From Acinetobacter defluvii (GTDB lineage Bacteria; Pseudomonadota; Gammaproteobacteria; Pseudomonadales; Moraxellaceae): 64,000 nucleotides of DNA. The translations under genes were made by a program, and so were the position numbers. The stretch covers positions 1,550,001-1,614,000 of the forward strand of contig NZ_CP029397.2 in NCBI RefSeq assembly GCF_001704615.3. The letters are read 5' to 3'. Below, one piece after another: positions 4,842-55,701 of this stretch; the first letter of the stretch is position 1, and each line of letters starts with the position of its first letter. The notes below the pieces were generated by a model. The model was not told the origin of the DNA. It saw nothing but the letters and a program-made list of their open reading frames with translations, and did no database searches.

Positions 4842-5933
4842 TTAGACATTAAAACGGAAATGTAGAACATCACCATCTTGTACTACATACGTTTTACCTT
4901 CTAAGCGCCATTTCCCGGCTTCTTTTGCACCATTTTCACCGTTATATTGAATGAAGTCATCATAAGCAACACATTCAGCACGGATAAAACCTTTCTCAAA
5001 GTCTGTGTGAATCACGCCTGCAGCCTGTGGTGCTGTTGCGCCAACTTTAACAGTCCAAGCACGAACTTCTTGAACGCCTGCGGTGAAGTAAGTTTGCAGA
5101 CCAAGTAATGCATAACCTGCACGAATAACCACGTTTAAACCAGGTTCTTCCACCCCTAAAGCTTCTAAGAACTCAGCACGATCTTCATCTTCAAGAAGTG
5201 AAATTTCAGCTTCGATTTGGTTACAAAGCGGAACAACGATGGCATTTTCTTCAGCAGCTAACTTTTTCACAGCTTCTAAATGTGGATTATTTTCAAAACC
5301 ATCTTCTGCAACGTTCGCGATGTACATAGTTGGTTTTAATGTCATTAAACCAAAACCACGAACAAGTTTACGTTCATCATCATCCAAGTCTGCTGCACGT
5401 GCAGGTTTACCTTCATCAAGCAAAGGTAAGATTTTGTCTAATACCGCTTTGGTTGCAACAGCTTCTTTGTCGCCACCTTTTGCAGATTTTGCTAAACGAG
5501 TCACTGCTTTGGTGACGGTTTCTAAGTCAGCAAGTGCAAGTTCAGTGTTAATGGTTGCAATGTCATCTAATGGATCAATTTTACCATTTACATGGATGAC
5601 ATTTTCATCTTCAAAGCAACGAACGACATGTGCAATCGCATCAGTTTCACGGATGTTTGCAAGGAATTGGTTACCTAAACCTTCACCTTTAGATGCGCCA
5701 GCAACTAAACCTGCAATATCCACAAATTCCATCGTGGTTGGAATGACGCGTTGGGGTTTTACGATGGCTGTTAATTTGTCTAAACGTGGATCAGGTACTG
5801 GCACGATACCTGTATTGGGTTCGATGGTACAAAATGGAAAGTTTTCCGCAGCAATAGCAGCTTTAGTCAATGCATTGAAAAGTGTAGATTTACCAACGTT
5901 CGGCAAGCCGACAATACCGCAATTAAAACCCAT
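4842..5933 (-). CDS. ychF: Ribosome-binding ATPase YchF (Obg family)
   Basis: This is a 363-residue protein, the standard YchF length. Motifs are the Walker A/G1 loop GLPNVGKST, the G3 motif [18 protein letters not shown], and the altered G4 region (NVAE, not NKxD) that gives YchF its ATP preference. A TGS-like C-terminal domain ends in [15 protein letters not shown]. It binds ribosomes and affects translation fidelity and stress responses. The frame opens four codons earlier at a GTG, but the ATG at 5933 gives the conserved MGFNCGIVG start. The usual neighbour pth is not adjacent here. Confidence 0.96.
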
Positions 5934-6441
5934 GAAATAACTCACAAAGTGTTATCTAAAAATTGCAGATGATTTTACATGAAAGCAATGACAAAGTCAG
6001 GTATAAGCTTTAAGATTTAAATAATTCAAAAAATCCAAAATACTTGTATATATAAAAAATGGCTACTTTCAATATTCAAGAATACAAGAACAAATTAAGC
6101 AAATAAAAGTAGAGTTTTGGAAAGTAGAGCGTTCTTCACGTTTGCAGTGGCTTTTTGAGCATTATCCAATCGGCGCTAAAGATTATTATATTGCCTATTA
6201 TTTAATTACCAACAATACGTAGAATAAATTAAAACGCAGAAATTTATTGCAATATTATTTACAAAAAATACCTTATGCATCATAGGAATAAAGAGATATA
6301 AATTTTAGTGCTGATATTTGAATATTTGACTGATTCTTTGAACAAAAAGTACATTGTAATTTAACAATGGAGTCGCTAAAGTAAATGTAATTACTAGGAA
6401 TTATCCTAAAGATTTGATTAAAAAAATAATTTGGAGATTTT
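5934..6441. other. 508-bp intergenic region with a possible gene remnant
   Basis: No intact gene is visible between ychF and the GST-like gene. The stretch is AT-rich. Its middle part (6025-6222) looks protein-coding and is listed separately. The right part (6223-6441) has no clear structure. Confidence 0.6.
6025..6222 (+). pseudogene. Possible remnant of a protein gene
   Basis: A 65-codon open frame between a TAA (6022) and a TAG (6220) reads like real protein in its second half, for example SSRLQWLFEHYPIGAKDYY, with ordinary residue composition. It contains no ATG, GTG or TTG start and no ribosome site. The simplest reading is the surviving end of a decayed gene. I do not recognise the family. 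Confidence 0.35.
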
Positions 6442-7206
6442 ATGCGCATTCTTTACCAATTTCCTTTATCGCATTACTGTGAAAAAGCACGTTGGTTACT
6501 TGATCATAAAGAATTAGATTTTGTAGCGCAGAATATTATACCTGGAGTACATCGGGCATTTGCTCAACTGAAAACAGGGCAAAATAAGCTTCCAATTTTA
6601 AAAGATGCTGATCGTTGGATAGCTGACTCAACCCAAATCGCACTGTATTTAGATGACATTTATCCAGAACACACATTGTTACGCTCAGATGCAAATTTAC
6701 GTCAACAAGCCTTAGACATTAATGTTATTTCAAATGAATTAGGGCAGCACGTACGCCGTTGGGGGTTGGCTCAAGCACTTTTAGTCAGTGATGAACCACT
6801 TGAGATTATGATTGGTGAAAAAGGATATTTACGTCAATTTGAGAAATTTTCCAAGCCGATATTAAAAACTTTGGTGTCCAAAAGCTATCAATTAGATGCT
6901 GAAAAAGTTGCAGACTCTAAATATAAAATGGATGAAATCATCCAACAATTAAATGACAAATTAGTTGAAAATCAGTGTCGTTATCTCGTGGGTGAGCGCT
7001 TAGGTTTAGCAGATATTGCAGTGTGTTCAATGCTTGCACCTTTATTATTTATCAATGGTACACCTTGGGAAATCGAGTTTGAAGACAGCTTATCGGATGA
7101 GGTAAAAAGCTATCAGGAAGCATTATTAAGTATGCCAATCGGGCAGTATGTACAACGGATTTATTTGACAGAACGTAATGCGCGGGTGGACTGGCGTGGG
7201 ATTTAA
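6442..7206 (+). CDS. Glutathione S-transferase family protein
   Basis: The 254-residue protein has a thioredoxin-like GST N-terminal domain (about 1-78), with LYQFPLSHYCEKARWLLDHK carrying a Cys at the catalytic position, NKLPILKDAD (cis-Pro) and IADSTQIALYLDD (glutathione-contacting Ser). An all-helical C-terminal domain follows, with GERLGLADIAVCSMLAPL. The substrate cannot be predicted. It appears monocistronic. GGAGA precedes the ATG at good spacing. Confidence 0.85.
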   Translation: MRILYQFPLSHYCEKARWLLDHKELDFVAQNIIPGVHRAFAQLKTGQNKLPILKDADRWIADSTQIALYLDDIYPEHTLLRSDANLRQQALDINVISNELGQHVRRWGLAQALLVSDEPLEIMIGEKGYLRQFEKFSKPILKTLVSKSYQLDAEKVADSKYKMDEIIQQLNDKLVENQCRYLVGERLGLADIAVCSMLAPLLFINGTPWEIEFEDSLSDEVKSYQEALLSMPIGQYVQRIYLTERNARVDWRGI

Positions 7207-7446
7207 GCACTGCGTATTTTTGATATTTTAATTATTGCTGGTCATTTGATTTCAAAGTAATTATGTGAATATATTTGTTTAATGGTTTGTTTAAAGATAC
7301 AAATAGTCAGAGCATTTCTCTATGTATAGTGAAATGTAGTGAAAAACATTTTCACAATAGTTGTAAATTGAGAAATATTTTATCAAAATAAAACGCTATA
7401 ATTTAGGGTGAACTAATATCACCTATACCAAATAATGGAGTTTTTA

Positions 7447-49828: not shown

Positions 49829-50012
49829 ATGATGTCCTAATCCTATTGTCTGATTCAGACTTATAATCTGTGAGGTGATTTGATCATAGGTCAAATTTCA
49901 CAATTTGTCTGTGTAAAGCGTTGTTTTTATATATGGGTCTTGGCTTATTTGTTTTCAATCTAGTTTTTATGAAAAACATGCAAAAGCTTATTTTTAACAC
50001 ATCGTTCTCGTT

Positions 50013-50354
50013 CTAATTATCTACATCTAAAATAGCTTCATATTTTCCTGTCTCAGATAAATACGATATAAAATTCCCACTCGCAGTTTGTAGCCAGAGG
50101 CGACCACAATTAATACACTCATAAATATCTTTACGAAATTTTAAATCCACAGTTGAAATTAGATCAAATAAATAATCATCATACACTTTTTCACCTAAAT
50201 TCAATTTTTCTTTATAATTTTCAATTCTTGTCTTAATTTCATCAAGCATTTGATAGTCCAATTTATCAGGAATAAATGATGCTTTATGTGGAAGATCATC
50301 TGTATTATCTCGAATTACATACCCACATTCACAACCTAACTTACTCATTTCCAT
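50013..50354 (-). CDS. Small hypothetical protein with zinc-ribbon cysteines
   Basis: The 113-residue protein has CECG near the N terminus (Cys 8 and 10) and CINC near residue 80 followed by GRLWLQTASGN. These four Cys could bind one zinc. It is acidic, with no signal peptide or membrane helix. Start is either 50354 or 50348; GAGA fits 50348 better. Standalone proteins of this sort are sometimes immunity proteins, but nothing here shows that. Unknown function. Confidence 0.6.
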   Translation of the reverse strand: MEMSKLGCECGYVIRDNTDDLPHKASFIPDKLDYQMLDEIKTRIENYKEKLNLGEKVYDDYLFDLISTVDLKFRKDIYECINCGRLWLQTASGNFISYLSETGKYEAILDVDN

Positions 50355-50456
50355 ATTCTCTTTCTTGTTTTTAATTCATGAAGCACTTTAACAGAAAAGA
50401 ACGCATGAATTGCAAATACCTTTATTTTTTGCTAATTTAACAGTTCAACTTAAAAA

Positions 50457-50786
50457 CAAAGACAGGTGTCCGTCTTTAAAACGCAAATCATGTCCGTAAA
50501 AGTCGATGTAAAAGACAATAATCTTGATCTTGCCTTAGAGCAACTTTCCAATAAACAATACATTTTTCTTAAACCATCAAACCTATGGCTAAAAATTGAT
50601 TTAACACCCCCATATCAAGCTACTAGCAATGTTTTTGCTGTAAGTCGATAAATCCGATTTATTCCTTTTTATTTCATCACAAAAGACAGGTGTCAGTCTG
50701 TAAAACACATATTATGAGTATTCAAGTCCAAGTTAAAGATGACGATCTTGATCTTGCTTTAGAGCAACTTCGTATCAAAAGCTATT
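50457..50786 (+). repeat. Direct duplication containing two bS21-like starts
   Basis: Copies begin near 50457 and 50681, with a constant offset of 224 bases and no gaps over about 90 bases. Both include the leader AAAGACAGGTGTC and the first 20 codons. They diverge after that. Confidence 0.7.
50490..50651 (+). pseudogene. Decayed bS21-like paralog
   Basis: A 53-codon frame begins MSVKVDVKDNNLDLALEQLS, nearly the same as the start of the bS21-like gene 224 bp downstream. After about residue 20 the similarity fades and the basic tail is absent. The matching DNA includes the 30 bases before the start. A GTG-initiated form from 50466 would add eight residues. It is probably a duplicated and decayed copy. 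Confidence 0.5.
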
Positions 50787-50974
50787 ACTTAACCACACAT
50801 CACTGGTATAAAAAATGTCATTCCTATCATGACAAACCACCGAGCAAAAAACGTAAAAAAACTGATATGAATCTGCTAATTGGGCATCGTCAGGTTTTAG
50901 ATGATGACCCATTGGCGGAACGCTTGGACATTCATCTTGAAGAACATTATCTCAAGACAAATAAAAAGCCATAG
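50714..50974 (+). CDS. Ribosomal protein bS21-like protein
   Basis: The 86-residue protein resembles ribosomal protein bS21. Its first 16 residues, ending in LDLAL, align without gaps with bS21 (MPVIKVRENEPFDVAL), and the basic stretch YHDKPPSKKRKK fits FYEKPTTERKRAK. A C-terminal tail of about 35 residues is extra. No Shine-Dalgarno sequence precedes the ATG; a GTG at 50690 could add eight residues. It lies upstream of the RNA-repair genes but is separated from them by a terminator. Confidence 0.6.
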   Translation: MSIQVQVKDDDLDLALEQLRIKSYYLTTHHWYKKCHSYHDKPPSKKRKKTDMNLLIGHRQVLDDDPLAERLDIHLEEHYLKTNKKP

Positions 50975-50996
50975 TGAAAATATTTTCCCTCAACTT

Positions 50997-51026
50997 AAAT
51001 CCATGCTGAATCAAGCATGGATTTTT
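50997..51026 (+). terminator. Terminator after the bS21-like gene
   Basis: AAATCCATGCT and AGCATGGATTT form an 11-bp perfect stem with a six-base loop, followed by TT. It separates the bS21-like gene from rtcB. Confidence 0.8.
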
Positions 51027-51058
51027 ACAACCAAAATTAAAACCTATATTTTTGGATA

Positions 51059-51098
51059 TTTAAATATTTTAATTTATAGATTAATTTAAATATTTAAA
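51059..51098. repeat. AT-rich direct repeat upstream of the sigma-54 promoter
   Basis: TTTAAATATTT occurs at 51059 and 51085, 26 bp apart, about 90-130 bp before the promoter. This is where enhancer sites for a sigma-54 activator such as RtcR normally lie. Confidence 0.35.
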
Positions 51099-51187
51099 AT
51101 TTAGCATCATTAAAATCAAACATGAAAAAATTATTTATACAATACAAATCAATGATTTAAAAAATCAACATTAAAATAAATTTAAAG

Positions 51188-51206
51188 TTGGCACGCTCTC
51201 TGCAAT
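51188..51206 (+). promoter_or_regulatory. Sigma-54 promoter of rtcB
   Basis: TTGGCACG and TGCAA place GG and GC exactly ten bases apart (GG at 51190-51191, GC at 51202-51203). This matches the sigma-54 -24/-12 consensus TGGCACGN4TTGC with one mismatch. Known rtcBA operons are sigma-54 dependent and activated by RtcR. Confidence 0.8.
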
Positions 51207-51241
51207 AGATACAGTACATCATAAAGATGTATAAAAATTTC

Positions 51242-51270
51242 ACCTGCCTGCAACCGCTTGGCAGGCAGGT
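51242..51270 (+). other. Leader hairpin before rtcB
   Basis: ACCTGCCTG and CAGGCAGGT form a 9-bp GC-rich perfect stem with an 11-base loop. It ends eight bases before the AAGGA ribosome site and would be near the 5' end of the sigma-54 transcript. Confidence 0.6.
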
Positions 51271-51290
51271 TTAGAGAAAGGAAAAAAGCC

Positions 51291-52559
51291 ATGACCATGT
51301 CAGTCATTGAACAAATCGAAAAACAAGCCACCAATGAGCGTGCTTATAACATTATTCAGGATGCCAAAGGCGTTCCAATTAAAATGTGGACTAAAGGTGT
51401 CCCTGTCGATGAAAAATCACAAGATCAATTATTAAGAACTGCACAAATGCCGTTTATTTATAAATGGATGGCGGTGATGCCCGATGTACATTTTGGTTTA
51501 GGTGCAACCATTGGAAGTGTGATTCCGACCAAAGGCGCAATTATTCCTGCTGCGGTGGGTGTCGATATTGGTTGCGGAATGATGGCGACACGCACTTCCC
51601 TGACTGCTTCTGATTTACCTGATAATTTACATGCACTTCGTACCGAACTTGAGCGTTTAATTCCACATGGAATGACCAAAACTCGTGGTAGCGGACGTGA
51701 TAAAGGGTCTTGGAATAAACCCTCTGAACGTGTTGATGCAGCTTGGGCGGAATTGGTGGCTGATTTTGAGTTGATTTGTGCCAAGCATCCACGTTTAAAA
51801 AATACCAATAACCGTACTCAACTTGGAACTTTGGGAACAGGAAACCATTTTGTTGAAATCTGTTTAGATGAATATCAACAGGTTTGGATAATGTTACATT
51901 CGGGTTCTCGTGGGGTTGGAAATGCAATCGGGACACATTTTATTGATCTTGCACGTAAAGATATGCAGAAGCATTTCATTAATTTGCCTGATAAAGATTT
52001 GGCGTATTTGGTTGAAGGTACTGAGCATTTTGATGATTATTGGTTTGCGGTGGGTTGGGCGCAGCGTTTTGCCTTAAAAAATCGTGAATTGATGATGGAA
52101 GCTGCAATTCAGGCGCTTGCAACGATTGTGAAAAAACCGTTCAATGCCAAATTGGAAGCGGTAAATTGTCATCATAATTATGTGAATAAGGAAGAACATT
52201 TCGGTGAAGAAGTCTTGATTACCCGTAAAGGTGCGGTACGTGCACGTTTGGGTGAGTATGGCATTATTCCTGGTTCGATGGGTGCGAAGTCTTTTATTGT
52301 CAAAGGTAAAGGAAATCAGGAATCGTTTTGTTCATGCTCGCATGGTGCAGGTCGTGTGTTAAGCCGTACTGCGGCAAAAAAACAGTTTACCGTAGCGGAT
52401 CAAATTGCACAGACGCAAGGTGTGGAATGTCGTAAGGATGAAGCGGTGATTGATGAGATTCCGTCTGCCTATAAACCGATTGAAGATGTGATGAAAGCGC
52501 AGAGTGATTTGGTGGAGGTGGTGTATACATTGAATCAAGTTGTTTGTGTGAAAGGGTAA
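51291..52559 (+). CDS. rtcB: RNA-splicing ligase RtcB
   Basis: The 422-residue protein shows the Mn-binding VGVDIGCGM, HSGSRGVGN, NCHHNYVN and the guanylylated-His region CSHGAGR. RtcB joins RNA 2',3'-cyclic or 3'-phosphate ends to 5'-OH ends using GTP. The frame extends 11 codons upstream, but AAGGA fits the ATG at 51291. It starts the RNA-repair operon under a sigma-54 promoter; rtcA comes later, after several inserted genes. Confidence 0.96.
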   Translation: MTMSVIEQIEKQATNERAYNIIQDAKGVPIKMWTKGVPVDEKSQDQLLRTAQMPFIYKWMAVMPDVHFGLGATIGSVIPTKGAIIPAAVGVDIGCGMMATRTSLTASDLPDNLHALRTELERLIPHGMTKTRGSGRDKGSWNKPSERVDAAWAELVADFELICAKHPRLKNTNNRTQLGTLGTGNHFVEICLDEYQQVWIMLHSGSRGVGNAIGTHFIDLARKDMQKHFINLPDKDLAYLVEGTEHFDDYWFAVGWAQRFALKNRELMMEAAIQALATIVKKPFNAKLEAVNCHHNYVNKEEHFGEEVLITRKGAVRARLGEYGIIPGSMGAKSFIVKGKGNQESFCSCSHGAGRVLSRTAAKKQFTVADQIAQTQGVECRKDEAVIDEIPSAYKPIEDVMKAQSDLVEVVYTLNQVVCVKG

Positions 52560-52565
52560 GTGATT

Positions 52566-53108
52566 ATGAATGAACAGATAGAACCTATTATTGAGCATTG
52601 GAAAGCAGAACATAGTGAGAGAATATTTTTTCTCACTCTAGGATTAGGAGCAGAAATACATTGGTTTTTTACCCAAGCTCTTGAAGCCTTAAAGTTAGGA
52701 CTCTATCTGCCTGCTTGTACTTCATTTATTAATGGGATTGAATCCTCCATTAGAGTAATTTACGCCCAATCAATACAGAAAGACATAAACCATTTAAATG
52801 ATACACCTACTCTCAGCAACAGTTTATTAATAAAAGCCCAATCTATCGGAATGCCAATAACATTTTTAAAATTTCCTAATGAAGCTCAATTTCAAGAAAA
52901 TTTAGTCTCAACTAAGCCTAAAACTAATGTTGAGATAGTAAGAGTAAGGCACAACCTTGCTCATGGAAATATTTTTGAATACATAAATAAAGATTTAGGT
53001 GAGGATAATATTTTCTTTACACCTGAATGTTGCCGAAATTTAGCATTCAATTTATATGAAATATCAAAAGAATGGTGCGCAGAGCTAGCCAAATTTAAAC
53101 AAACCTAA
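52566..53108 (+). CDS. HEPN-like protein with RX4H motif
   Basis: The 180-residue, mainly helical protein has an internal helix LPACTSFINGIESSIRVIY and, near residue 138, RHNLAHGNI. That matches the R-x4-H motif of HEPN ribonucleases and DUF4145-like proteins. It starts six bases after the rtcB stop and is therefore co-transcribed. A possible RNA-cutting or RNA-binding protein next to an RNA ligase is a meaningful pairing, but the fold is inferred from pattern only. GTG at 52560 is an alternative start. Confidence 0.6.
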   Translation: MNEQIEPIIEHWKAEHSERIFFLTLGLGAEIHWFFTQALEALKLGLYLPACTSFINGIESSIRVIYAQSIQKDINHLNDTPTLSNSLLIKAQSIGMPITFLKFPNEAQFQENLVSTKPKTNVEIVRVRHNLAHGNIFEYINKDLGEDNIFFTPECCRNLAFNLYEISKEWCAELAKFKQT

Positions 53109-53121
53109 TAAGGAAAATAAA

Positions 53122-53583
53122 ATGAAACTTGCAGAAGCACTTTTATTACGAAGCGATCAACAAAAGAAACTCGCTTCACTCAAACAACGAATCAATGCCA
53201 ATGTATTGGTACAAGATGGTGATGAACCATCAGAAGACCCAAACGAGATGTTAAAGCAAGTATTTGCTTTAACGCAGGAATCTCAAAAGCTAGTTTTGGC
53301 GATTCATCAAACCAATGCTTTGGCAAAACTAACAGATGGACGTTCATTACTTGCGTTATTGACACAACGTGATGAACTTGTGGAACGTCATAAGATTTTG
53401 ACCTCTGTGATCAGCAATACGCATCGCGAACCTGATCGTTACAGTACCCGTGAGATCAAATGGCACAAAGTGATTCCTGTATCATCCTTGCAAAAACAAG
53501 CCGATGATATCAGTACCAAACTCCGTGATTTAAATGTATTGATTCAAGCGACCAACTGGCAAGTAGATTTACTTGAGCTTTAA
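53122..53583 (+). CDS. DIP1984 family protein
   Basis: The 153-residue helical protein reads MKLAEALLLRSDQQKKLASL, then RINANVLVQDGDEPSEDP, and ends with helices including LRDLNVLIQATNW. This is the pattern of the DIP1984 family (septicolysin-related annotation in some genomes), whose biochemical role is not known to me. It starts 13 bases after the HEPN-like gene with AAGGAAA before the ATG, so it belongs to the rtcB operon. Confidence 0.75.
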   Translation: MKLAEALLLRSDQQKKLASLKQRINANVLVQDGDEPSEDPNEMLKQVFALTQESQKLVLAIHQTNALAKLTDGRSLLALLTQRDELVERHKILTSVISNTHREPDRYSTREIKWHKVIPVSSLQKQADDISTKLRDLNVLIQATNWQVDLLEL

Positions 53584-53627
53584 ATCAATCCATACACAGT
53601 TTTGATGTAGTTCACTATGTCAAATCC

Positions 53628-53817
53628 GAAATATATTGGGCGAGTACAAGATCTAAGGCTGTATAGATTGAAATAAAAGTCAGCAACATTTTTGGAAATG
53701 AGCTAAGTGGATTTATGGCGTAATCGCACCAATCAATCCATCACAATTCATCCATTAAACCTTTGTGAATCAAAGTTATTATTCACACTGCATTACCAAG
53801 TACTGACAATATATTTC
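53628..53817 (+). ncRNA. Structured RNA candidate 1 (Y-RNA-like)
   Basis: The first of two tandem copies, 190 bases. Its ends pair perfectly: GAAATATATTG (53628-53638) with CAATATATTTC (53807-53817). Inside lie the internal loop GGCG / GA and a second helix AGTAC (53643) / GTACT (53800). The conserved motifs GGGCGAGTRCAAGATC and CATTACCAWGTACTGACA match copy 2. No coding frame fits. The layout, ends paired into a helix, a small internal loop, a second helix, then a large variable part, is that of Y RNAs. Confidence 0.65.
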
Positions 53818-53849
53818 TTCTTAAGCCAATAATTGTTTAAGATAACACC

Positions 53850-54043
53850 GAACATACTGGGCGAGTGCAAGATCCCCTACCTCCACAACACAGGATTGAA
53901 AAGACGTGTAGTGGCTTGCAGAGCGAGCGGGTCAGCTTAACATTTTAGGCACAAATCAACCTATCACCTTGCACCATTTAAAACTTAGCCCATAAAGCCA
54001 AGTCACAACTCACTTGTCATTACCATGTACTGACAGTATGTTC
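53850..54043 (+). ncRNA. Structured RNA candidate 2 (Y-RNA-like)
   Basis: The second copy, 194 bases, begins 32 bases after copy 1. Its ends pair perfectly: GAACATACTG (53850-53859) with CAGTATGTTC (54034-54043). Compared with copy 1, two base pairs change from T-A to C-G on both strands. A second helix AGTGCA (53864) / TGTACT (54026) follows the same GGCG / GA loop. An internal hairpin CCACAACAC / GTGTAGTGG (53884-53914) is unique to this copy. It is part of the rtc gene cluster. Confidence 0.68.
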
Positions 54044-54063
54044 ACCTTATTTTGGATAAGAAA

Positions 54064-54642
54064 ATGGAAAAATTTCAATTAACAGACTTTGAAATTAAAA
54101 CTTTACTCTCTGGCTCACCAATCTATGATCAATATCCATGGGATACTAATCAAGAAGAAATAATAGAAAAATTTTATTTAAATATTTGTAATGAGATTGA
54201 GCAAGAAACTGAAAGTTTATCTCAAAAAGAATTCAATGATTATGGTTCAGGTTATGCATCATTTTACGATACATGGTTTTATAAAGAGAAATCTTCATTT
54301 AAATTTCCAAACTCTCCATATCCAAACCAACATTTTAATGGTTTAGTCATATTATTTAGTAAATTAACGCCATATTATGTTTTTATGCAAGGAGAAAAAA
54401 GTTGGCATGACAAAGGTGGAATTTCATATATGCCTGACTCTCAAATGATTGATAATTTAAAATGTTGGGCAGTTAATGATTTAGCAAAAACAATTGAACC
54501 TATATTAAAATCACACGGTCTCATTCGTTTAACACAAGAACAATTAAACGTTCCATTAAAAGGTCAATGGACAATTCCAACTATATTAACAGTCACAGAT
54601 GAATATATGCTCTTCGATGCTTTATTTTTCTGGGAAGATTAA
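54064..54642 (+). CDS. Hypothetical protein in the rtc cluster
   Basis: The 192-residue acidic, aromatic-rich protein has motifs such as YGSGYASFYDTWFYKE and YVFMQGEKSWHDKGG. No signal peptide or membrane helix is present. I do not recognise it; its general look resembles cytoplasmic immunity-type proteins, but no toxin is nearby. It starts 20 bases after RNA candidate 2 and ends 24 bases before rtcA, so it is likely co-expressed with them. A TTG at 54052 opens the frame; the ATG at 54064 is preferred. Confidence 0.7.
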   Translation: MEKFQLTDFEIKTLLSGSPIYDQYPWDTNQEEIIEKFYLNICNEIEQETESLSQKEFNDYGSGYASFYDTWFYKEKSSFKFPNSPYPNQHFNGLVILFSKLTPYYVFMQGEKSWHDKGGISYMPDSQMIDNLKCWAVNDLAKTIEPILKSHGLIRLTQEQLNVPLKGQWTIPTILTVTDEYMLFDALFFWED

Positions 54643-54666: not shown

Positions 54667-55701
54667 ATGAACACACAATTAAAATCTAAAACCATCCAAA
54701 TTGATGGTTCAATCGGCGAAGGCGGCGGACAAATCCTTCGCACAGCACTGTCATTGTCTATGCTCACAAGTATTCCTTTTGAACTGGTCAATATTCGTGC
54801 GGGACGGAAAAAACCAGGCTTAATGCGTCAGCATTTAGTTTGTGTACAGGCATCAGAACGTATTAGCCATGCAGTTGTAGAAGGTGCTGAATTACATTCA
54901 CAAAAACTGTATTTCCAACCTCAGCAAGTTCAAGCTGGAAAATATGATTTTCAGATCGGCTCTGCGGGTAGCACCATTTTAGTTTTACAAACGCTACTTC
55001 CAGCTTTAATGATTCAAGCCGAACCAAGCGACATCACTATTCATGGAGGAACACATAACCCGATGGCACCCACTGCAGATTTTATTTCACAGTGTTTTCT
55101 ACCTAGTCTTGAAAAAATTGGAATCCAAGTTGATTTTGAATGTGAACGCGCTGGCTTTTTCCCGATTGGCGCAGGTCAGATCAATGCAACCATCCACCCA
55201 TGGATAAAACAAACTCAGTATACTGCTTTGGATAAAGGTCAATTAATTGATATTCATGGCTATGCGACTGCACTCAATATTCCAAGTAGTATCGCAGATC
55301 GTGAGCTTGAAGTTTTACATAACAAGTTAAATTTAACACAACGTCAACGGTTAAATTTTCAGGGTATCAGTCAAGGAAATACAGCATTTGTAGTACTGAA
55401 TTATGAACATCATCAACAAATCTTTTCTGCTTTAGGAGAAATGAAAAAGAGTGCAGAAAAAGTCGCACATGATTTAGCCAAAGAAGTGAAAGCGTATTTA
55501 GCAACAGATGCTGTAGCAGATGAGTATTTAACAGATCAACTGCTATTACCTTTAGCTTTGGGGAAAGGCGGTGAGTTTTCTGCTCAAATGATCAGTGAAC
55601 ATACCCGAACTCAAGCGGCTATGATTCAAAGATTTATAGATTGTGAGATTACATTTACTGAATCAAAAGAAAATCATTGGTATATTCAAGTGAATGTTTA
55701 A
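54667..55701 (+). CDS. rtcA: RNA 3'-terminal phosphate cyclase RtcA
   Basis: The 344-residue protein has GSIGEGGGQILRTALSLS, IGSAGSTILVLQTLLP, GGTHNPMAPTADF and the catalytic His region ISEHTRTQAAMI. It converts RNA 3'-phosphate to the 2',3'-cyclic form with ATP, giving ends that RtcB can join. It is separated from rtcB by about 2.1 kb of cluster genes and RNA candidates. Its stop codon lies inside the loop of the terminator. Confidence 0.95.
   Translation: MNTQLKSKTIQIDGSIGEGGGQILRTALSLSMLTSIPFELVNIRAGRKKPGLMRQHLVCVQASERISHAVVEGAELHSQKLYFQPQQVQAGKYDFQIGSAGSTILVLQTLLPALMIQAEPSDITIHGGTHNPMAPTADFISQCFLPSLEKIGIQVDFECERAGFFPIGAGQINATIHPWIKQTQYTALDKGQLIDIHGYATALNIPSSIADRELEVLHNKLNLTQRQRLNFQGISQGNTAFVVLNYEHHQQIFSALGEMKKSAEKVAHDLAKEVKAYLATDAVADEYLTDQLLLPLALGKGGEFSAQMISEHTRTQAAMIQRFIDCEITFTESKENHWYIQVNV

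Follow-up and report, generated by a model that had tools for sequence, protein, structure and literature searches.

What are the two RNAs that stand inside the RNA-repair locus of Acinetobacter defluvii, and with which protein do they belong? The stretch of DNA analysed here, called the window, comprises 64,000 nucleotides of contig NZ_CP029397.2. Between a gene of the DIP1984 family and the gene that precedes rtcA, it carries two non-coding copies of a structured RNA, which lie side by side on the forward strand (copy 1, 53628..53817, 190 nt; copy 2, 53850..54043, 194 nt). The original prediction placed this pair correctly and suggested that it might be orphan Y-like RNAs or a new class that serves RtcB, RtcA or RtcR. 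We are almost certain that the RNA represents a new class of structured bacterial non-coding RNA (ncRNA), linked to DIP1984. The constant partner of the RNA is the DIP1984 gene upstream of it, not rtcBA. The order of gene and then RNA is constant, as is the strand, the two occur together nearly without exception, and the architecture of the RNA covaries. Overall, with a probability of about 0.6, we favour a new ncRNA class that is inherited with DIP1984 as a two-part cassette, is made with the DIP1984 mRNA, works with the protein as a ribonucleoprotein (RNP), and has sometimes been recruited to RNA repair.

Association of the RNA with DIP1984

The association was measured with a covariance model, R1, built from an alignment of 34 RNAs, 14 of them from Acinetobacter. 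Both window copies are among these 34 sequences and match the model at 93.9 bits (copy 1) and 126.6 bits (copy 2). R1 finds the RNA in 70 of 149 Acinetobacter genomes, that is, in all 69 with a DIP1984 gene (PF20935) and in one of the 80 without (Fisher p 2e-42, a value that treats the genomes as independent, which they are not, being related). A BLAST search with both copies gave matches in 62 of the 149 genomes and in 348 plasmid records, 347 of which are from Acinetobacter, and the end motifs of the RNA were seen behind most of the Acinetobacter DIP1984 loci fetched. The RNA lies within 300 nt on the 3' side, on the same strand, for 72 of the 76 DIP1984 stretches matched (one split gene contributes two of the 76). 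Seen from the RNA, 79 of 80 matches have a DIP1984 gene at most 600 nt upstream. The four stretches with no RNA behind them are two second copies in tandem loci, where the RNA pair lies upstream, and two distant paralogues. These paralogues (32% identity; locus L132, 3975-4424, and locus L133, 3970-4419) come from two Acinetobacter genomes and are not accompanied by the RNA. The lone RNA match without DIP1984 (genome G013; locus L247, contig 56, 59450-59780) scores 23 bits and appears by eye to be a decayed remnant, with a readable 3' half and an unreadable 5' half.

The association extends far beyond the genus. A scan with one genome per species found 211 relatives of DIP1984, of which the best 80, from many phyla, were kept. 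By eye, the same layout follows DIP1984 in the loci that were read, a set that leaves out about L179-L188. Of 67 downstream regions, 43 reached a score of at least 27 with a hand-made descriptor, and 34 exceeded 29; the top scores were 29 for one mononucleotide shuffle of each region and 25 upstream of the gene. R1 matches 82 of 87 DIP1984 loci, always behind the gene and on its strand, with a highest E value of 0.0076; the independent number is below 82 of 87, since sequences from 20 of the loci went into the model and some loci come from the same or nearly the same genomes (for example, L147 and L181). The phyla with the RNA behind DIP1984 include Bacillota, Planctomycetota, Myxococcota, Actinomycetota, Bacteroidota, Spirochaetota and Chloroflexota. 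Apart from these, the only R1 matches at E up to 1 in the 750 kb searched are the two copies of the window and the second RNA copy present in five loci. The five loci missed are L180, L191 and three viral contigs (L231-L233), and L180 and L191 show the architecture by eye or by descriptor. Among the 14 largest clusters of open reading frames (ORFs) from 66 non-Acinetobacter loci, the biggest is DIP1984 itself, and the others, judged by eye, are frames antisense to it or genes that near relatives in Enterococcus and Comamonas have in common.

In a sample of 274 genomes from the class of A. defluvii, R1 matched four, and DIP1984 is above the PF20935 cut-off in two. These two are the genome of A. 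defluvii itself and G372, a Comamonas by its match to L181, and both are among the four. The other two R1 matches are G397, with a weak match of 20 bits, and G232, whose two weak matches were rejected as tandem 7-nt repeats that by eye mimic an array described below. Eight weak PF20935 matches in these genomes were likewise set aside; six look like chemotaxis receptors by eye, and the other two are unlike DIP1984.

A patchy spread, 373 plasmid records with a DIP1984 match and an RNA beside a small protein gene are what a toxin-antitoxin or phage-defence cassette of protein and RNA, similar to type III systems, would show. We consider such a cassette highly improbable. PADLOC and PHROG gave no match for the four proteins tested (defence islands were not searched for), no nuclease is among the significant fold matches, and the RNA lies 3' of the gene. 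The fold search with DIP1984 returned the solved relative 3kdq as its sole significant match, although the absence of other families from that search excludes nothing. In some Acinetobacter records, DIP1984 is called septicolysin, a cytolysin name to which the family and fold matches lend no support.

Position of the RNA relative to the DIP1984 stop codon

Between the stop codon and the start of the model match, the median distance is 19 nt (range 0-207), and 74 of 79 loci have at most 60 nt. In some Enterococcus and other members, a terminator-like hairpin follows the RNA by eye. Position and hairpins suggest that gene and RNA share a transcript, which either is cleaved to free the RNA or retains it as a 3' element. 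In the latter case, the structure would stay in the DIP1984 mRNA as a cis-acting element, through which DIP1984 controls its own synthesis or the lifetime of its mRNA, and no free RNP would exist. The constant placement 3' of the gene on the same strand is in keeping with such an element. So is a model start 0-1 nt past the stop codon in six of the 79 loci (0 nt in four), where a terminating ribosome would cover the 5' strand. Nevertheless, 140-200 nt with a pseudoknot, tRNA-like arms and an array is elaborate for a 3' untranslated region, and two RNAs stand side by side in eight of the 70 RNA-bearing genomes, A. defluvii included. On balance, we regard a purely cis-acting role as unlikely, and prefer an RNA that is released to form an RNP with DIP1984.

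Structure and covariation

The helices of the original prediction are all present in the two copies. The ends of copy 1 pair over 11 of 11 bp (GAAATATATTG with CAATATATTTC; 53628-53638/53807-53817), and those of copy 2 over 10 of 10 bp (GAACATACTG with CAGTATGTTC; 53850-53859/54034-54043). Counted from the inner end, two pairs of this terminal helix, P1, differ on both strands, T-A of copy 1 being replaced by C-G in copy 2. GGGCGAGTRCAAGATC and CATTACCAWGTACTGACA are common to both copies. Across an internal loop of GGCG opposite GA (53639-53642 and 53805-53806 in copy 1; 53860-53863 and 54032-54033 in copy 2) follows a second helix, P2, formed by AGTAC/GTACT in copy 1 (53643-53647/53800-53804) and by AGTGC/GTACT, with one G-U pair, in copy 2 (53864-53868/54027-54031). 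Folding of the single sequences yields a modest gain over shuffles (z -1.69 and -2.07 for the two copies), so that the proof of structure is comparative. In copy 1, mean pairing probabilities are 0.994 for P1 and 0.976 for P2. In copy 2, the single-sequence values are 0.842 and 0.005, and its lowest-energy fold is without P2, a result that the comparative evidence overrules.

The claim that selection maintains an RNA structure, first made from the two copies, holds in the wider alignment. RNAalifold predicts 24 pairs from the 34 RNAs, and 22 of them show a change on both sides with pairing kept. A manual structure of 38 pairs, pseudoknot included, has 88.9% of its cells paired, compared with 69.4% in shuffled alignments. 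Its covariation score of 0.645 exceeds the shuffled value of 0.267 and was reached in none of 500 shuffles. Slid controls of the same structure score at most 0.152, an advantage that is partly favoured by drawing the structure from the same 34 sequences. Pairs changed on both sides number 9/9 in P1, 4/6 in P2, 5/6 in helix H1 and 8/8 in helix H2. H1 and H2 cross and therefore form an H-type pseudoknot, which the alignment places at 53871..53913 of copy 2 (H1 53871-53876/53892-53897, H2 53884-53891/53906-53913). The H2 pair at columns 48-74 is unpaired in 23 of the 34 sequences and constitutes a conserved mismatch.

In some members, part of the RNA resembles tRNA arms. The D-arm-like hairpin has the typical form of GCGC, an 8-nt loop ending in GGCA, and GCGC. 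The hairpin and its loop pairing are weaker than the other helices (71-87% and 71% of cells paired), and it occurs in at most 42 of 63 non-Acinetobacter RNAs, as spurious matches are among those counted. Of these 63 RNAs, 11 have a canonical T-arm (5 bp and a 7-nt loop, TTCGANY), a pattern that 475 kb of flanking sequence matches 19 times. Seven of the 11 are from Actinomycetota, and one each from a spirochaete, a clostridial, a Vagococcus and a planctomycete locus. No T-arm was seen by eye in the window copies. We call the module of the two arms a putative tRNA-like elbow. The features that we propose for the class, namely P1, the GGCG/GA loop, P2, the pseudoknot and an ACC before the 3' strand of P2 (P2'), are all found in the window copies.

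Outside P1, many of the loci L170, L191, L193, L200, L202, L205, L206, L210, L213, L215, L217, L225 and L180 show by eye an extra pair of motifs, of which the 5' one reads roughly GGTAG and the 3' one roughly CGAGGGYGGGnnnGGGG. This pair is enclosed in L170 by a helix, also read by eye, of some 14 bp.

A heptanucleotide array in the 3' strand

A feature that the original prediction overlooked lies in the stretch from the hairpin to the ACC preceding P2', where AC steps recur about every 7 nt. In 56 non-redundant sequences, 126 AC pairs occur at lag 7 and 71 at lag 14, with 48 (z 12.3) and 43 (z 4.9) expected from dinucleotide shuffles. Counted from the end of the ACC, A occupies positions -6, -13, -20, -27, -34 and -41 in 93, 88, 79, 52, 55 and 54% of sequences, and the signal is gone further out (16% at -48). 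The clearest example, in locus L162, reads GCCCATC ACATTGC ACTCGGC ACATCGC AAATCGC ACTACTC ACAACC. Copy 2 has its AC-N5 array region at 53966..54024, as placed by eye; it is interrupted by a hairpin and ends at ATTACC. The Enterococcus members fit the array poorly. To our knowledge, no described RNA class has a heptanucleotide array of this kind. The reader predicted from such an array has a 7-nt register, and the first candidate for it would be DIP1984 in oligomeric form.

The two copies and the neighbouring genes

In a tree of 24 RNAs, the first copies of the clade form one group, with the first copy of L075 at its base, and the second copies form two groups. Hence, the pair is not a recent duplication; the sequences point to an old duplication in this clade. 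Loci L075 and L086 have a second DIP1984 gene, 53% identical to that of the window, after copy 2 and before rtcA. The idea that copy 2 of the window once belonged to a second DIP1984 gene, since lost, is not supported, because the second copies of these two loci, together with that of L105, form a branch apart from it.

The genes of the locus from rtcB to rtcA lie on the forward strand. The DIP1984 gene (also DUF6847; 53122..53583) encodes 153 amino acids (PF20935, E 1.6e-46, over the curated cut-off; NF038048, E 1.8e-50), and the RNA copies start 44 nt and 266 nt past the end of its stop codon. Upstream are rtcB (51297..52559; PF01139, E 1.4e-131) and, in the interval to DIP1984, a gene of 182 codons (52560..53108) with weak similarity to HEPN proteins (PF18737, E 0.012, below cut-off). 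This gene has by eye an RHNLAH motif, which we take to resemble the HEPN RNase motif. Between the RNA pair and rtcA (54667..55701; PF01137, E 1.7e-72) stands a gene of 192 codons (54064..54642), for which a Pfam search gave no match. In the ORF list of the window, no frame of at least 60 codons overlaps either RNA copy. A scan of 53400-54300 found five promoter-like sites, compared with 4.0 in shuffles, and no terminators, and is uninformative. Upstream of rtcB are two tandem small ORFs that look alike by eye (50466-50651 and 50690-50974), the second with a very weak likeness to ribosomal protein S21 (PF01165, E 1.2; E 0.43 for its homologue in L245).

The RNA-repair setting

Homologous RNAs do occur near other rtcB genes, as the original prediction expected. 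An rtcB gene lies within about 4 kb of 42 of 72 Acinetobacter DIP1984 loci, and RtcB and RtcA accompany three of 66 loci elsewhere (two from Undibacterium and one from Phycisphaerales). The neighbourhoods counted reach about 4 kb to either side at most, so that a distant RtcB could escape, and some contigs end sooner. These numbers are what might be expected of an RNA specific to the Rtc system, as a substrate, guide or signal for RtcB, RtcA or RtcR. However, no rtcB is shown at 30 of the 72 and 63 of the 66 loci, and plasmid pAB0057 carries the RNA behind DIP1984 in a stretch of 6.4 kb that, as examined, is free of annotated rtc genes. RtcB is found in 70 of the 149 Acinetobacter genomes, but these are not identical with the 70 that have the RNA. 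An Rtc-specific RNA is therefore very unlikely. The RNA-repair setting of the original prediction stands, and service to RtcB, RtcA or RtcR as the defining role does not, as the RNA lies behind DIP1984 with or without rtc genes.

Some relatives have a fuller island, with rtcR (a name taken from a related record), a metallo-beta-lactamase-fold protein of RNase Z type, a protein with TROVE and Ro60-vWA domains, YrlA RNAs, a small ORF, rtcB, DIP1984, the RNA, rtcA and, in some, a KptA/Tpt1 protein. The presence of Rsr and YrlA in the same island, and an RNA with a terminal stem, an internal loop, D-arm-like and sometimes T-arm-like hairpins, gave reason to consider a Y RNA of the YrlA type, made for the Ro60/Rsr protein. 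Y RNA membership was a part of the original prediction that failed, and we regard it as largely refuted, with a minimal chance of being right. TROVE matches occur in 11 of 149 Acinetobacter genomes (10 over the cut-off, and 10 of the 11 by coordinates within about 5 kb of the rtcB gene of their locus), compared with 70 for the RNA. The absence of Ro60/Rsr from the window was confirmed and extends to the whole genome, in which a TROVE search found no match.

The YrlA model (RF02553) matches beside the TROVE genes of Acinetobacter at 40-60 bits (E 4.8e-11 to 1.6e-5), below its gathering score of 69. The matches lie in L242 (5933-6057), L243 (8579-8703), L245 (three, 6565-7253) and L246 (5759-5865). 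In L246, from a genome without DIP1984 (G076), the match lies at the start of an ORF of 497 codons (5825-7318) with TROVE matches. The DIP1984-linked RNA of L242, L243 and L245 is unmatched by the YrlA model, even with YrlA a few kb away; at E up to 0.5, the model matches there in other places only. One island can thus hold two distinct RNAs, YrlA and the DIP1984 RNA, since R1 finds only the latter and the YrlA model only the former. The YrlA model has no match over the window copies at E up to 10, nor does it match in 49850-51300 when E up to 5 is allowed. Elsewhere in the window, the search used the gathering score only, a level at which the YrlA RNAs of relatives would be missed too.

The two systems share a closing stem formed by both ends, a nearby protein partner and recurrence in rtcBA loci, and possibly a tRNA-like module. 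They differ in that the DIP1984 RNA has a partner without a TROVE domain, a pseudoknot, a GGCG/GA loop and the heptanucleotide array. By our reading, the order of modules is also reversed, with the D-arm-like hairpin first and the T-like arm second in the DIP1984 RNA, and a T-arm-like element first in the YrlA alignment. Operons of the form rsr-yrlBA-rtcBA are switched on when tRNA fragments accumulate, according to the main text of Hughes et al. (2020, PMC7790460), in which the name Acinetobacter does not occur.

Comparison with other RNAs and proteins

Rfam 15 at gathering score gave no match at the RNAs of the window or of 18 loci. A permissive Rfam search with the copies and two relatives with T-arms returned chance-level matches, or tRNA-Sec by way of the T-arm (E 0.58 and 1.9), and these were rejected. 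Transfer-messenger RNA (tmRNA) with SmpB offers a likeness to the DIP1984 RNA, having a pseudoknot, tRNA-like arms and a small partner protein of about 150 amino acids. It differs in that neither ARAGORN nor Rfam calls a tmRNA at the DIP1984 RNAs, in the window or in the 18 loci, with no further search for a tag frame made. C4 antisense RNA was tried and rejected, as Rfam gave no such match on the window copies. The C4 antisense-like group 1 small RNAs of A. baumannii, as described in the main text of PMC5320573, are also a structured Acinetobacter family with several copies. They differ from the DIP1984 RNA in size, partner and spread, and by its lack of an Rfam C4 match. The words rtcB and plasmid do not occur in that main text. 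The DIP1984 protein, compared with the coiled-coil arm of seryl-tRNA synthetase, gives a Z score as for unrelated helical hairpins, and no sequence relation was found in the PDB.

In the literature searched, DIP1984 has only a passing mention, in one paper, and DUF6847 none, and the name septicolysin gives 24 papers. The main texts of two large ncRNA surveys, supplements apart, contain no occurrence of rtcB, DIP1984, septicolysin, Acinetobacter, Comamonas or tRNA-like, and that of the A. baumannii AB5075 RNA interactome contains none of rtcB, rtcA or septicolysin.

A possible mechanism and its meaning

The RNA would begin at or just past the DIP1984 stop codon, would be co-transcribed with the gene, and would then be released from the mRNA. 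DIP1984 would bind it, possibly as several molecules spaced in step with the heptanucleotide array. That the two form an RNP is probable. The RNP could be likened in its working to Ro60 with Y RNA, to which it is unrelated, as a scaffold that has a tRNA-like elbow and would handle or sense broken RNA. The repeated presence inside rtcB-rtcA loci suggests RNA damage as one setting of use, and a role of the pair in RNA damage is a tentative proposal, somewhat against the odds. A fuller scheme is speculative and improbable in all its parts together. It would be a widespread, Ro60-independent RNP, in which DIP1984 sits in register on the array with about 7 nt per protomer, the elbow and the pseudoknot together make up a head that mimics tRNA, and the N5 segments, left exposed between the fixed AC steps, could pair with target RNA. 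The task of such a particle would be to capture or protect broken RNA, and some lineages would have recruited it to RtcB-RtcA repair.

In summary, a structured RNA class that spans many phyla, without a match in Rfam 15 in the present searches, provides a functional lead for the uncharacterised DIP1984 family. The array with its 7-nt step is uncommon among RNAs and predicts that the reader is an oligomer. For bacterial RNA-repair islands, the pair of DIP1984 and its RNA would be a second RNA-protein module beside Ro60 and Y RNA.
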